Positions 576 to 12,700 of a DNA stretch of 24,566 bases are shown here, in pieces (within the stretch, counting starts at the first letter, position 1; every line of letters starts with the position of its first letter). Below the pieces are notes generated by a model, which saw only the letters and a list, made by a program, of their open reading frames with translations, did not search any database and was not told where the DNA came from. This DNA comes from Syncephalis fuscata (Eukaryota > Zoopagomycota > Zoopagomycetes > Zoopagales > Piptocephalidaceae). A program made the position numbers and the translations under genes. The stretch is from assembly GCA_025786725.1 (NCBI GenBank), contig JAHLTZ010000127.1:1-24566 (forward strand). The letters run 5' to 3'.

Positions 576-2852
576 TTAATCTATGTTCATAAATTTATAC
601 AGCAAATTTCATGTAGTTAGTGTTTAAATCAACAATATATAAAATTATTTACCAACTATTAGTGCAAGTTATTAAACACACGCAGTGCATAAAGTGTAAT
701 TAGTTTATAACTATTTAATATACAATGGCACTTACACCCTATCAACACAAGTTATTACACAAGAGCAGTACATAACATATGCTTAGTGTATCGATAATTT
801 ATATAAAATGCCACTTACGGACTATTAATGTTGTTATTGAATACATACAGTGTATATCACATGGTCAGTATATATTTGGTTAGTACAAAGTTTCACCTAC
901 AAGCTACCAAATACACGCAGTACATAGAACATGTTTAATATACAGTTGAGTAATATACTATGTCACTTACGACCTATTGATAGCCGTTATTAAAAATGTA
1001 ATCCATGCCGCATAATTAATATATAGCTGGTTAATATACAATGTCACTTACGTTCTATTAATACAAGCCATTAAACATACACATTGCATGGTATATATTT
1101 AGCGTATATTTGCCTAATATATAGAGTTATTTACCAGCTATTAATATAAGTCGTTAAACAGATAGATTGTGTGACATGTTTAACACATAACTAACTAAAA
1201 CATAATTTCATTTACCAGCTATTGATATAAGTTATTACACACACGTAGTGGATGATATATGCTTAGTAAATAGTTAATTAATATAAAATGTTATCTACCT
1301 TCTATTGGTGCAGGTTATCCACATCAAATAATTTATGATTAGCGTATAAATAATTACTATACAATGTCCCTTACTAGCTATTAATACAGATTATTACACA
1401 AATGTGCATGTCATATACTTAGTAAATTATCAATTAACATACAATGTCATTTACCAGTTGTTACTTCAAGATATTAAGCAATCACAGTACATAGCATAGG
1501 CTTAGTTTTTAGTCGATTAATAAACAATGCCATTTACCAGCTATCGATATAGGTTATCAAGCAGACGTAGTGCATATCATATATTTAGTGAATGAACGAT
1601 TAATATACAGTATCACGGGGGGACGTTGCTAGCCCAGTTGGTAAGGCAGCGTCTCCCGAGCTGAAGGCTCCGGGTTCAAACCTCAGTTTGAATCAATCCT
1701 TAAGTGGAAAATCCCCCCCTCCAGTTTTCTCTAGTTAACAAATTGCAAACCAGAACCCAATAAGTAGGTCCGGAAACAAGACCTTGGCCAGAATAGCCGA
1801 GGAAAACCAATTGGGACCAACTTCAAGAGAATAGTGCTGTGTAGCACCATTTAAAGGAAGATGGCCCCCGTGTAAAATCTATATGGACCAGATTTTGCGC
1901 AAAAACGTGGCAGTCCACCCGTTAAAAGTTTGGAAAAGTCCAAATATAGTGGGAAGCAGCGCAAATTCTTTAATTATGCGCAGCGGGGGCTCACAAGCTC
2001 TTCAAAATAAAATAAAATAATATACAGTATCACTTACGTTCTATCAATAAAAATTATTATACAGATGAAATACCCGACATATGTTAGTACATAAATAGCT
2101 AATTTGCAATTCCACTTACTTCCTATTGATACAAGGGATTACACATCATATGGTGCATGCTTAATGTATAAATAATTAACATACAGTATTACTTACCCCC
2201 TAGCAATACAATTTATCATACAAGCATAGTATACAATCTATATTCAGTGCGTAGCTATTTAATATATAATGCCATTTACCAACTATTAATATAAGCATTG
2301 CATAAACGTAGTACATAGCATATGCTTAGCATATAGTTAATTAATATGCAGCGTCATTTACCAACTATTGATACATGATATTAAACAACCACAGGGCATG
2401 ATATTTTAGTATAATCGATTAATATAGCATTTTACTTACAGGCTATTAATGTACGTTATTAAACAAATATGGTACATGTTATATGCTTAGCGTATAGCCA
2501 ATAAATACACGACGTCACTTACTAACTATTGATACAGGTTAGTATACAGGCATGCATGCCACATACTTAGTGTATAGTCAATTAATACATAATTTCATTT
2601 ACTTTCTATTAATACAAGTTATTAAACATAAAAATTATATGGTGTATGTTTAGCATATAATAACTAATATATAATGACGCTTACGATCTATTAACGTGGT
2701 TTTTCAGTGTATACATTATTTAATTAAGTGAATGACTGATTATTGTAATACGACATACCACGACGGCCTAGAGTCGGCATGGCATCCACCGTAGCTGTGA
2801 TAACTACCAAGGCCATAAAAATGGTACATACGACGCCAATAGAAAACTTCAT
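576..2852 (-). CDS. Secreted peptide gene A, built from 21 microexons (20 of 3 nt)
   Basis: Exon 1 (2759-2852) codes 31 residues starting MKFSIGVVC, a clear signal peptide with a hydrophobic core and a likely cleavage site after VDA, then PTLGRR. It ends after one base of a codon at a GTATGT donor. From there to 581 the sequence is a regular array of introns separated by 3-nt exons (coordinates in the array entry). Read in phase 1 with no stop, they code DQITFVGGKP, then VTT if the 9-nt exon at 1455-1463 is used, then AKAAERPFRFD. The terminal exon starts at 580 and reads AT-TAA. The product is about 55 aa, a basic secreted peptide of unknown function. A TATA-like element lies at 2988-3000 and a minus-strand AATAAA signal at 345-351. 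No family recognised. The paralogue at 4557-5189 shares signal peptide, phase, first microexon and stop position. Splicing is inferred, not observed. Confidence 0.7.
1601..1616 (+). repeat. Left target-site duplication of the SINE
   Basis: TAATATACAGTATCAC, identical to 2018-2033. The sequence belongs to the intron repeat unit. Identity between the copies suggests a recent insertion relative to divergence of the array. Confidence 0.92.
1617..2017 (+). mobile_element. tRNA-derived SINE (401 bp) inside an intron of gene A
   Basis: The element starts with a run of G and a tRNA-like head. The A box reads TAGCCCAGTTGG (1630-1641) and the B box GGTTCAAACC (1673-1682), the two internal RNA polymerase III promoter elements. 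An unrelated body of about 300 bp follows, visibly richer in G and C than the flanks, and then an A-rich tail of AAAAT repeats. It is flanked by perfect 16-bp direct repeats and replaces nothing. With the element and one duplicate removed, the host unit returns to the 83-bp period of its neighbours. It is in the opposite orientation to gene A. It has no coding capacity and would need reverse transcriptase from a partner LINE not present here. Confidence 0.93.
2018..2033 (+). repeat. Right target-site duplication of the SINE
   Basis: Same 16 bp as 1601-1616. It ends 4 bases before the microexon at 2038-2040, so the last bases of the minus-strand donor region (GTAAGTGATAC) are preserved by the duplication. 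Confidence 0.92.
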
Positions 2853-4556: not shown

Positions 4557-5189
4557 TTACACTATTTTCATAAGTTTATACAAAATGTAACATAGTTAGC
4601 GTATAAATCAATACTATGTAATTCTACTTACTAACTATAGATTGTTAAACACGCAGTGCGCAGTATGTTTAATGCATAGCTAATTGATATATACGTAACT
4701 TACCAGCTATTGATGGCAAATTATCGGGCACAATGCATATGTTAATTTATAGCCAATTGCTATACAATGGCACTTACGTACTATTAGTGTCAAATTATTG
4801 GACACACAATACATAGCATATGTTAATTTATAGTTAATTAATATACAATATCACTTACAAGCTATTAACATCAGGTAATCAAACACGCAGTACATAGCAT
4901 ATGTTAATACATAGTTAATCGATATACAATGACACTTACGCTCTATTGATGTGTGTTATGTATTACCCACAGTAAATTAAACATAAACGATACATTCTAT
5001 TAATATGTAGCATTACTTACGATCTGGTAACATCGGTTGGGTAATGCAAGCAGTATTTAATTAGCTAAGTAGTTAATTATTGTAATACAATATATTACCA
5101 CGAATTGGAGCCGGCTTAGCATCCACCATGGCTGTAGCGGCTATCAAAGCCACGACAATGGCACAGATGGCGGCAATAGAAAGCTTCAT
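4557..5189 (-). CDS. Secreted peptide gene B, paralogue with six 3-nt microexons
   Basis: Exon 1 (5099-5189) codes 30 residues starting MKLSIAAICAIVV, a signal peptide ending near VDA, followed by KPAPIR. It stops after one base of the next codon at a GTAATA donor. Microexons follow at 5021-5023 ATC, 4940-4942 AGC, 4859-4861 CTT, 4778-4780 TAC, 4704-4706 CTG and 4632-4634 TTA. The terminal exon begins at 4561 and reads TG-TAA. In phase 1 the tail reads DQPLPVM and then stops, so the product is 37 aa. Introns are 69-78 nt, all GT...AG. The first microexon (ATC) and the Asp-Gln it helps encode are the same as in gene A. A TATA-like GCTATTTAAG lies at 5319-5328 and a minus-strand AATAAAC at 4326-4332. 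Function unknown. Confidence 0.7.
4562..5098 (-). repeat. Intron/microexon array of gene B (seven introns)
   Basis: Introns occupy 5024-5098, 4943-5020, 4862-4939, 4781-4858, 4707-4777, 4635-4703 and 4562-4631. They share sequence with the gene A units (CAATG.CACTTAC at the donor end, CTATTAAT-like at the acceptor end on the plus strand). The array is shorter than in gene A by 15 units. Copy-number change of a whole unit alters the peptide by one residue without changing frame. Confidence 0.8.
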
Positions 5190-9780: not shown

Positions 9781-12700
9781 CTACAAAGCACCCAATCTAT
9801 ATATATATATATGTATATGTATATTGTTAGTGCCATTATTCTATTCAATAAATACAACACTTACCGGTCACGTAATAATTCAACTTCATCTAATAGAATT
9901 TGTGATCGAAGTCTTGATTCCCGTCGAGAAGAGGACTGGTTCAGGTCGGGATAGTTGCCAGGAGGCATGGCGGTGAACGGATTATGGTAGGCAAATGGAG
10001 AAGTCTCCGTACCGGTGTCCTCTTCAATACGGTTGGCCAAATCAATCAAATCTAATAGACGTACTTGTTGAGGTTGGTGTAGTATTTCCTATAATAACAC
10101 AGTGTTAATTAGTTGAATAGTAATTATAATGTACACTTACTTCAAACTCTTCTTCTGTACGCAGATTAAGTAATGTGTCACGACACCCAATAAGTAGAGC
10201 TACGGCAAAGAAGTAAATAAAGGAGGGTGGTCGTGTAAAGCAATGATCCCATAGACGGGCCCAATCTTCTTTACAAAGTACTTCTGAAAAGAGTGATTGT
10301 AATGGAATCCATCCGTAAATCTATTAATATTAATGTTTATAAATATAATAAGCATAGTATTGGTTATCTATCTACTCACCTCATTAGGAATGACATGAGA
10401 CCGGAAGTGCTCAAGTAGTTCAAGGTCATGCTCCGATAGTAATTCATCCAATTTCTCCAAGAATAGCTTAGGGGCAGACGGGAATTGATTCCACCAGCCT
10501 TGGCACCAATTACCTAAGTATAAAATAAATTGATTAATAAACTAATAGTAAATACTATTAAATATAAATATATACGTACTTAATAGTGTAGCTACAAGCT
10601 CAAAGCAAGCAAACAAATCATCGCCCATCATCTTCACAAAGGGGAAGACTAAATAGGGCATATAGTCGAGTTCTTCAAATGCTGGATTCCAATGTACTAG
10701 CAATGATATCATACTATTGTAATGTTAATTAGTAATTAGTAATTGGTAATAATTACTATTATATTATGCTTACCGTTCCATGGCCAGTTGCAATTTACGG
10801 TTCTGCATAGAAAATCGTTCACGGAATCGATCAATACATGAATGTGTACCTTGTGATACCAAATCACGAAATGCATCTATTATTATTATTATTATTATTC
10901 ATTATTCATTATAAATAATGACATCAATATTCATTTAGATTAATAGCTTATTATAGTGTTTACCTTGGTTCTGAGGCAGTACAAGTAAGAATCGCCAGAT
11001 AAGTGTACGATAATCACGTGGAAAACGACCACGCTTCTCTAGAATCTCTACTAAACTCTTTCGATTCATTTCTGGATTGCCATTATGGGTCAGGTCAATA
11101 TCCGAGTCAAGTACCGATCGGTTGGCTTCACTGGATGCATCAGTTGGCGTAGGCGATGCATTAAGATATTCACGATACTGAATATTTGAACGTGAACCGG
11201 AGTTACCAGAACGTGATGGTCCTGGTGCATCCGACATACGACGGTTCGAGTAAGTATCGCGTATCGATTGAGGACGGGCACCCGAAAGACTATTACGAGA
11301 CCTTGTGGAGTTGGCCGTATTCGATAGATTGCGTGGAATCGACGGGGGACCACTAAGACGATTGGGACGATTACCAGACGCTGAGGACACTGAATTACTA
11401 CGAACTGGCATAGGAATACGTGATGCTGATGCACCCGATAAACGACGGTCCTCTTGACGGTTTCGTGTTGGTGTAGCAGCACCACTACGAATACTAGTAG
11501 CGGGTGAAGATGCACCGGAAACTCGACGAGAATGGGTTACTGACATATTTGCATAATCATCTTCAGAGGGCGACTAATAGTGTGTGTGTGTGTGTTTATG
11601 GATCATTCATTAATAAATATAGTGTATACACCTTTATATTCTAAATCACTTACTGGCGCACGTAGTAACGTTTCAACTGACCAAAGTGTGATAAATGATG
11701 GCGAATTGATCGGCAGTGTTGATAGAATTAAGCCATCTGATGAAATGGTAAAATTCTTGGCCTAATTAATCATTTAAATGATTGTTGTTATATTGATATT
11801 TAATAAACTATAAACTATAAACTATAGATTTACTTACTGGCTTAAGACCAACACCTTTGGAAAAGTTTGATATCGCATCAAAAATAATAATGCGGCCTTG
11901 AGCATTAAGTACAACAAGCAATGTAGTTCGCGCGGCAAACTCCATTTGTACAATGCCTGTCTGTAGTCGTTCATCAATAATCTCTCTCTGTAGACGCTGC
12001 TCTTCAACGTTCCATACATGAATAATACCCCTGTAGATCCATGTTACCTACAATATATGCATGCTAATCAATTCAACTTACCAGCCCCCTGTGACCATCA
12101 ATTTACCATCACTTGATAGAGAAAATGAACTTAAACCACCAACAACATCATCATCTAATCCGACTAAATCATCTGGTGTAATCTTCCAGATCTGATCAAG
12201 TGTTTCAGAGTCCCATAGTACAATTGAATCATCGCGGAAATTAGCTACAATCATATCGCCAGATGGAGAGAATTCAGTTTGATTGACGCCCACTGCATCT
12301 ACACCTGTAAGTACATGTCGACGTGACCAATCCAACGTATCCCATAGAACAGATTCTGAGGCTGATGAAGTCAAAACACGAGGACGTGAGGGATGAACAC
12401 TAATACGTGTTACAATATTCTCGTGATGAGAAGTAAGTTTAGCCACTGGTGCGCCCGTGTCTATTCAATAATGTTAAGTAAATAGTTATATAATTAATAA
12501 AAGTATTTGTTATTTATATTTCTAAAGATAACATAAACAACAACTATGTTGTACTTACCCATATTGTAACAGTGAACAGCACGATCCGATAGACCCACAA
12601 TAAGCTCATTGGGTTTGGCAACACCCAGGGCCACAGCTGTACCAGAGATACCTGTACGTGCAATCAACCAGTATTTGTTGGCCTCAAGGTCAAACAAATA

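Follow-up and report, generated by a model that had tools for sequence, protein, structure and literature searches.

Introner elements are near-identical spliceosomal introns that have spread through a genome and lie scattered across unrelated genes. Very small exons are known from the micro-exon genes (MEGs) of schistosomes, for which one of the passages cited here from PMC10526429 gives exons of 3–81 bp and introns of up to 5 kbp, and another gives exons of 6–81 bp, the vast majority of 15 bp, with introns ranging from 100 bp up to nearly 5000 bp; a 3 bp exon by itself is already known from these passages and is not new. The bicycle and megacycle genes of aphids have ∼17 exons per gene on average according to the part of PMC9168663 used here. 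Here, we describe genes of the fungus Syncephalis fuscata in which the mature part of a small secreted protein is, to judge from the DNA, very probably written codon by codon in tandem modules of about 80 bp, each made up of an intron and a codon, and which would together form a large family. The point of reference is gene A, at 576..2852 on the minus strand of a contig of 24,566 nucleotides (JAHLTZ010000127.1, our C32), and the term window refers to this whole stretch; the genome searched comprises 28.95 Mb in 299 contigs. Syncephalis is a mycoparasitic genus that lives on other fungi. For another species of the genus, mycoparasitism is described in the portion of PMC6784888 referred to here.

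The architecture of gene A can be read directly from the window. An earlier note on this DNA had described a 94 nt signal-peptide exon followed by 22 GT–AG introns and by exons of 3 nt, with one probably of 9 nt, and the sequence agrees with it. The predicted parts are as follows.

2759..2852, minus strand: exon 1 of gene A, 94 nt, with a signal-peptide-like start, a segment ending in GRR and the initial base of a codon divided by intron 1
581..2758, minus strand: array of gene A, 22 GT–AG introns enclosing 21 internal exons, 20 measuring 3 nt and one 9 nt
2687–2685, minus strand: first exon of the array, ATC; the second to fifth start at 2605 (AAA), 2525 (TTA), 2442 (CCT) and 2364 (TTG)
2282, 2199, 2122, 2040 and 1540, minus strand: starts of the sixth to tenth exons of the array, TTG, GGG, GAA, AAC and CTG
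1463–1455, minus strand: 9 nt exon TAACAACTG, preceded by an unusual AAG acceptor
1377, 1301, 1218, 1137 and 1054, minus strand: starts of the 12th to 16th exons of the array, CTA, AAG, CTG, CTG and AAC
973, 903, 821, 738 and 655, minus strand: starts of the 17th to 21st exons of the array, GTC, CTT, TCC, GGT and TTG
576..580, minus strand: coding end, with AT at 580–579 completing GAT (Asp) and TAA at 578–576; the last acceptor ends at 581

The joined frame is open, as had been claimed, with its TAA two bases past the last acceptor, and the spliced coding sequence (CDS) measures 168 nt including the stop, matching the figure of about 168 nt given before. The exons are spaced at 70–85 bp, and to this extent the array is regular, as the note had it; the single exception, a spacing of 500 bp that was overlooked, arises because one intron carries a 401 bp element that is described below. 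When donors and acceptors were chained by score without any use of the reading frame, 20 introns were found in gene A compared with the 22 obtained by reading, two pairs having been merged. This splice model was trained on introns that it had itself found and its scoring was set by hand.

The array content of the window goes beyond gene A, which was correctly picked out before, and includes a second such gene, gene B (5189–4557), that had been missed.

5099..5189, minus strand: exon 1 of gene B, 91 nt, MKLSIAAICAIVVALIAATAMVDAKPAPIR plus G
4562..5098, minus strand: array of gene B, seven introns and six 3 nt exons, read by eye and uncalled by the splice model
5023, 4942, 4861, 4780, 4706 and 4634, minus strand: starts of the exons of gene B, ATC, AGC, CTT, TAC, CTG and TTA
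4557..4561, minus strand: coding end of gene B, with TG completing ATG, followed by TAA

The mature parts of genes A and B are both devoid of cysteine. With at most one mismatch, the string AATAGNNNGTAARTG has 22 matches in the window, where 0.65 (standard deviation 0.93) are expected, and 21 of these lie within the two genes. Exon 1 of gene A has seven matches in the genome, including C79:344422 (100%) and C79:377862 (96%). In the C79 copy of gene B the AGC exon, a single codon, is missing through a 65 bp difference and the frame stays intact. The contigs C32 and C79 (340100–347100) are near-identical (4190 matches and 26 mismatches), being either haplotigs or a recent duplicate.

Nor is gene A a single odd gene, as the note had presented it. 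The array genes, picked because their signal exons resemble those of genes A and B, form a non-random sample; signal peptides throughout the family were judged by eye. Among the 31 signal-exon matches that were examined, 22 have at least four introns, six are uninterrupted and one is cut by the fetched region, while the remaining two are gene B and its C79 copy, both uncalled by the splice model, with arrays identified by eye. In the 22 arrays, spliced blind to the frame, 571 of the 600 internal exons measure 3 nt, followed by 23 of 6 nt, three of 2 nt, two of 10 nt and one of 30 nt, and most introns measure 70–83 nt. The modules closely resemble one another in their donors and acceptors, and the triplets vary while the flanking AATAG and GTAAGT are strongly conserved. 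The 6 nt exons recur, often as the third or fourth internal exon, with an acceptor that is seemingly shifted by one codon. A very long array is present at C2:653300–660680, with 83 predicted introns and 81 three-nucleotide exons; its product looks helical rather than Cys-rich, and late in the array the frame is shifted by a 2 nt exon that is probably misparsed.

The 3 nt length of the exons is also evident across the genome. The strict pattern AATAG-NNN-GTAARTGNNRTT has 1062 exact matches and its reversed control has none, whereas the same acceptor–donor pair gives four matches (control 8) at gaps of 0–2 nt and 55 (control 19) over the thirty gap lengths of 4–33 nt, with several of these 55 longer strings holding an inner AG-NNN-GTAAGT. 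Chance clustering of splice motifs is ruled out by these genome-wide counts and by the motif count in the window. Since the strict pattern catches 121 of the 505 three-nucleotide exons in 19 gene models and occurs 1062 times, extrapolation from these chosen genes suggests a genome total of ∼4,400 such exons. Allowing two mismatches at most, 121 matches to the exon 1/intron 1 junction are present (control 1), a count that includes haplotigs and whose loci were fetched in part. The array family is probably larger than these 121 junctions because intron 1 deviates from the junction pattern in both gene A and gene B.

How far this build departs from known ones can now be stated. Introners lie in unrelated genes, whereas the copies in the arrays stand in tandem 3 nt apart and the closest of them include the codon. 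With the MEGs, as portrayed in the passages of PMC10526429, the arrays share predicted secretion, a conserved N-terminal signal peptide, short exons that are mostly multiples of three (594 of the 600 internal exons measure 3 or 6 nt and a further one 30 nt) and fast diversification, but differ from them in that 571 of the 600 exons are of 3 nt and that similar introns of 70–83 nt follow each other in tandem. The likeness to the aphid bicycle and megacycle genes is one of build only: in both cases tiny internal exons are almost all in one phase, as seen here in phase-1 joins that avoid stops across 19 arrays, and the products are fast-evolving putative effectors. Neither one codon per exon nor tandem intron modules appear in the passages on PMC9168663. 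The microexon of Xlr2 in Trichoderma virens is likewise fungal but, as far as the cited part of PMC11121469 goes, is a single regulated one in the gene of a DNA-binding regulator, with no array. Among the open-licence papers listed, a scope outside which preprints and most subscription journals fall, no description of a tandem intron-plus-one-codon architecture was found. We rate the architecture as categorically new and the class of product as familiar.

The codons formed across introns argue that the triplets are exons. For this count the 19 non-redundant arrays were used, leaving out the duplicates C79:344422, C245:357764 and C1:475325 and the cut C68:436103, and the phase was derived locally, from adjacent exons taken two at a time. 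One stop is present in 486 codons, compared with 28.4 ± 4.0 when the triplets are shuffled within genes (minimum 15 over 2000 shuffles) and with 32 in 448 when the same arrays are read in phase 2. Cysteine accounts for 79 of the 486 intron-split codons (16%). That the arrays are non-coding satellite-like repeats in which splice-like motifs are incidental is hardly credible. A tandem periodicity is detectable, as it would be in a satellite, but a satellite does not agree with triplets that vary between conserved splice sites, with predicted joins that contain far fewer stops than either shuffling or phase 2 gives, or with the homology to an uninterrupted gene that runs through fifteen ordered 3 nt exons (see below). 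For the family, the stop depletion and this homology together rule it out. A further candidate, in which exon 1 is spliced directly to the last exon over neutral triplets, was rejected for the family, although not separately for gene A, because neutral triplets would neither avoid stops nor spell Cys patterns.

Uninterrupted relatives of the arrays provide a further view of the spliced products. Of 29 loci that were checked for open frames, 22 encode intronless proteins with at least four Cys residues after residue 31 (19 of them distinct), five have fewer Cys residues or an early stop and two have no frame. The 19 uninterrupted mature peptides were compared with the products of 18 spliced arrays, those with fewer than eight introns having been dropped as well. 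For 12 of the 18 the similarity beats that of triplet shuffles (at most ten of 200 reach it), and seven also pass a shuffle that keeps the composition. Alignment A1, of selected proteins, 12 uninterrupted and eight spliced, reveals a common Cys pattern in which C42, C56 and C60 are invariant and C39, C46 and C64 are at least 90% conserved. This pattern bears on the idea of combinatorial splicing, in which modules are freely skipped so that each gene yields many in-frame peptides. The donors and acceptors of different modules are much alike, any skip of 3 nt is neutral to the frame and the C79 copy of gene B is one exon short at the DNA level with its frame intact; the sharing of the Cys pattern with uninterrupted paralogues nevertheless points to selection on one main product, and we consider free skipping to be doubtful.

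The strongest single result concerns the array at C13:299645, which is in none of the 22-, 19- and 18-array counts. Here, exons of 9 and 33 nt are followed by triplets that spell KGDTCKCQDEDGNCTSC, while the uninterrupted counterpart reads GACKCRDDDGYCTSC and has contiguous matches at C24 and C157 (both 100%), C289 (98%), and C222 and C278 (both 83%). Over 14 codons contained in fifteen 3 nt exons, TCKCQDEDGNCTSC and the uninterrupted ACKCRDDDGYCTSC are alike at 34 of 42 nucleotides. The local score of the match is 27, compared with a mean of 8.8 and a maximum of 19 in 2000 triplet shuffles. Ordered triplets are, by this comparison, homologous to a continuous coding sequence.

Several observations speak against a family written codon by codon. 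The C13:299645 pair was spotted first and tested afterwards. Six of the 18 arrays, gene A among them, fail the triplet-shuffle test and 11 fail the stricter one. The product of gene A has no similarity to the uninterrupted set, with 71 of 200 shuffles doing as well, and a search for an uninterrupted paralogue of the product of the longest array gave no matches. Reading whole triplets as codons (phase 0) yields one stop in 505, which we tentatively attribute to codon bias, NTA and NTG codons being few. Two arrays look damaged, C135:464301 with two 10 nt exons and stops after the first of these and C230:154952 with one stop; both are possibly decayed or misparsed. With these points taken into account, the stop depletion and the homology of spliced arrays still favour the codon-by-codon build that the note had proposed, and the putative coding function of gene A itself rests on two things, its family membership and its open frame.

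The introns of the arrays resemble each other, and the similarity decreases slightly with distance: the identity is 0.758 at lag 1 and 0.720 at lag 12 within genes and 0.706 between genes, compared with 0.535 after shuffling. The term copied introns that had been used before is therefore apt as regards intron similarity but has to be corrected, as the most recent copies take the codon along with the intron. Where both introns flanking the modules of a pair from the same gene reach 95% identity, the triplet is in common in six of six pairs, and in the closest pairs between genes it is in common in 84% of 25 (one duplicated gene pair included). In C267, alternating CAA and ACC modules give NPNP. 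Comparing the introns of C246:37000 and C267:539592, the best match is at the corresponding position for eight of the first nine and seven of the last seven, but not in the middle. Among the four gene pairs that were compared, this correspondence is clear for C246/C267, partial for C225/C267 and mainly confined to the ends for C249/C66 and C46/C68. Inverted duplicates that carry arrays, with nearly the same triplets, are seen at C1:475325/C1:534399 and at C2:519–522k/537–540k. The two C1 copies differ by gaps of 67, 79, 79, 82 and 169 bp and by a 424 bp insertion, the latter in the copy in which the element described below was found.

Two comparisons fit duplication of whole modules poorly. 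When the threshold for both introns is lowered to 93%, the triplet is in common in only 12 of 23 pairs within genes, and the gaps between the near-identical C66 and C245, of 454 and 147 bp, do not correspond to whole modules, one of them leaving a 30 nt parse. Beside introns that are 90–95% identical, triplets of the same gene (54 pairs) differ at 1.65 of 3 nt and those of different genes (59 pairs) at 1.63, compared with 2.17 for unrelated triplets. Such near-random triplets look as if introns had spread without their codons, and are among the points in favour of intron gain, in which an introner-like process placed copies of one intron at every codon and the uninterrupted members are ancestral. 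The similarity of introns between genes (0.71 versus 0.53 when shuffled) and the uninterrupted gene C57:350504, which has both flanks in common with arrays, also agree with it. Intron gain would, however, need special targeting to reach a uniform phase and an exact 3 nt spacing, both of which module duplication gives. The retention of the triplet in the closest module pairs (six of six within genes and 84% of 25 between) and the C246 and C267 arrays, which correspond by position at their ends and not in the middle, also argue against it, and we consider it a possible but unlikely origin.

The triplets appear to evolve faster than the introns. Between C267 and C246, 39 of 89 bases differ in the exons and 184 of 1883 in the introns; restricted to the ends that correspond by position, the figures are 12 of 51 and 84 of 1249, respectively. 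Of 122 non-independent module pairs whose two introns reach an identity of 90% or more, 30 have the same triplet, and the fraction of pairs that differ is 0.55 at codon position 1, 0.61 at position 2 and 0.34 at position 3. These values fit diversifying selection, which we do not claim because homogenization of introns or codon-free spread of introns could give the same pattern.

As to the direction of change, it is on balance somewhat more probable that the arrays came first and that the uninterrupted members are copies derived from the complementary DNA (cDNA) of spliced messages. Upstream of the ATG, C212:183081 and C289/C290 are similar to arrays of the main type over only ∼102–118 aligned base pairs, whereas five arrays are alike among themselves over nearly the whole 300 bp. 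A short upstream similarity of this kind fits a transcript start, and the 5′ boundary of C212:183081 is possibly that of a processed retrocopy. Downstream, C212:183081 carries AATAAA and a short A-tract (TTAAAAAAG) where its similarity to two arrays stops, 283–298 aligned bases past the stop codon. Less favourably, its similarity to a third array runs to ∼337, making the 3′ boundary ambiguous, C289 has several hundred downstream bases in common with two of three arrays, and the signs of retrocopying in the uninterrupted members are weak overall. The flanks that C57:350504 has in common with arrays extend 300 bp upstream and up to ∼900 bp downstream, so that at this locus all introns were either lost by cDNA conversion or gained in place.

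The element in the 500 bp interval of gene A resembles a short interspersed nuclear element (SINE).

1617..2017, plus strand: SINE-like element of 401 bp within an intron of gene A, antisense to the gene

It has tRNA-like promoter boxes, as judged by eye, is flanked by a 16 bp target-site duplication, GTGATACTGTATATTA, at 2033–2018 and 1616–1601, and is missing from the C79 copy of gene A. When 40 of 60 candidates were scored, at least 41 copies were found to cover at least 355 of 399 bases with 86–100% identity. Of these copies, 35 lie 77–2159 bp downstream of a listed signal exon of the family, all 35 antisense to it, and the other six have no partner in either orientation among the signal exons listed; the partner loci were fetched only in part and the array was seen for some. 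Six element-bearing introns were inspected, and in four of them clean duplications of 14–17 nt place the insertion at the same point, ∼20 nt past the donor, while the other two are degenerate. A long interspersed nuclear element (LINE) occupies the same insertion point in an array intron, again antisense, within C2 ∼268358–275716. It contains a reverse transcriptase match at C2:270984–271676 and, as read at its ends, is flanked on either side by GTGGCGTTGTACATTA and resembles the 401 bp element at its 3′ end. SINE-like pieces also follow another reverse transcriptase match, at C177:7191. Among target-specific non-LTR retrotransposons, Utopia, which targets U2 small nuclear RNA (snRNA; PMC4640811), and R2 (PMC10499050) are likewise tied to a single target; the target here differs from theirs in being a spliceosomal intron that belongs to a repeated protein-coding family.

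It is a guess that nicking at the fixed intron site promotes the exchange of modules. A wider proposal, which we consider improbable, is that the arrays are evolvable codon libraries, satellite-like repeats with one codon per unit, by which a parasite would rewrite its secreted peptides through module duplication, deletion and frame-neutral exon skipping; a dedicated LINE endonuclease cutting the fixed intron site would drive the exchange, and reverse transcription would fix successful peptides as uninterrupted genes.

We propose that the signal peptide comes from exon 1, together with a pro-segment that in most cases has Arg-Arg at its end, which we take to be a likely Kex2 site. The mature peptide would be encoded by the tandem ∼80 bp modules, each consisting of a GT–AG intron and nearly always one codon in phase 1, and would, if secreted, be a candidate effector. 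The array would be transcribed and its introns removed, their length of 70–83 nt being suited to recognition across the intron. Removal would proceed sequentially, with the upstream exon growing at each step. Such an order, in line with the ordered or recursive splicing that the note had supposed, is probable because only 3 nt separate acceptor from donor and neighbouring introns could hardly be assembled on together. Gain or loss of a module would change one amino acid and keep the frame, so that the mature peptide could grow, shrink and diversify codon by codon.

If transcripts confirm this build, the spliceosome would resolve dozens of acceptor–donor pairs 3 nt apart in each message (83 predicted introns in one array), which would be hard to accommodate in models of intron and exon definition. 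The unit of mutation would be a whole codon at no cost to the frame, with a possible route between arrays and uninterrupted genes. Poor gene models would also be explained: the deposited proteins P0001 and P0012, which are at array loci, keep exon 1 and then leave the array, with P0012 also keeping the 9 and 33 nt exons.

A search with one uninterrupted member returned three proteins, all from Syncephalis fuscata. A profile search with 20 members returned 13 proteins at E values of up to 1, again all from Syncephalis fuscata, and detected no homology to MEG or bicycle proteins within a sensitivity limited to shared words. In a Pfam scan five families each matched one of the 20 members, the best being Toxin_2 (2.5e-4) and Cys_box (1.1e-3), which is too weak for classification; the Toxin_2 match probably reflects Cys spacing only. 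Within the window, no RNA families or tRNAs were detected at the thresholds used. An ordinary gene that is TBC-like by eye (9797–10541, minus strand) has three GT–AG introns of 52–68 nt that splice to an open frame. Beyond GT–AG, five ordinary introns fit the array consensus unevenly, with scores of −0.1 to 15.7 for the donors and −5.6 to 12.3 for the acceptors.

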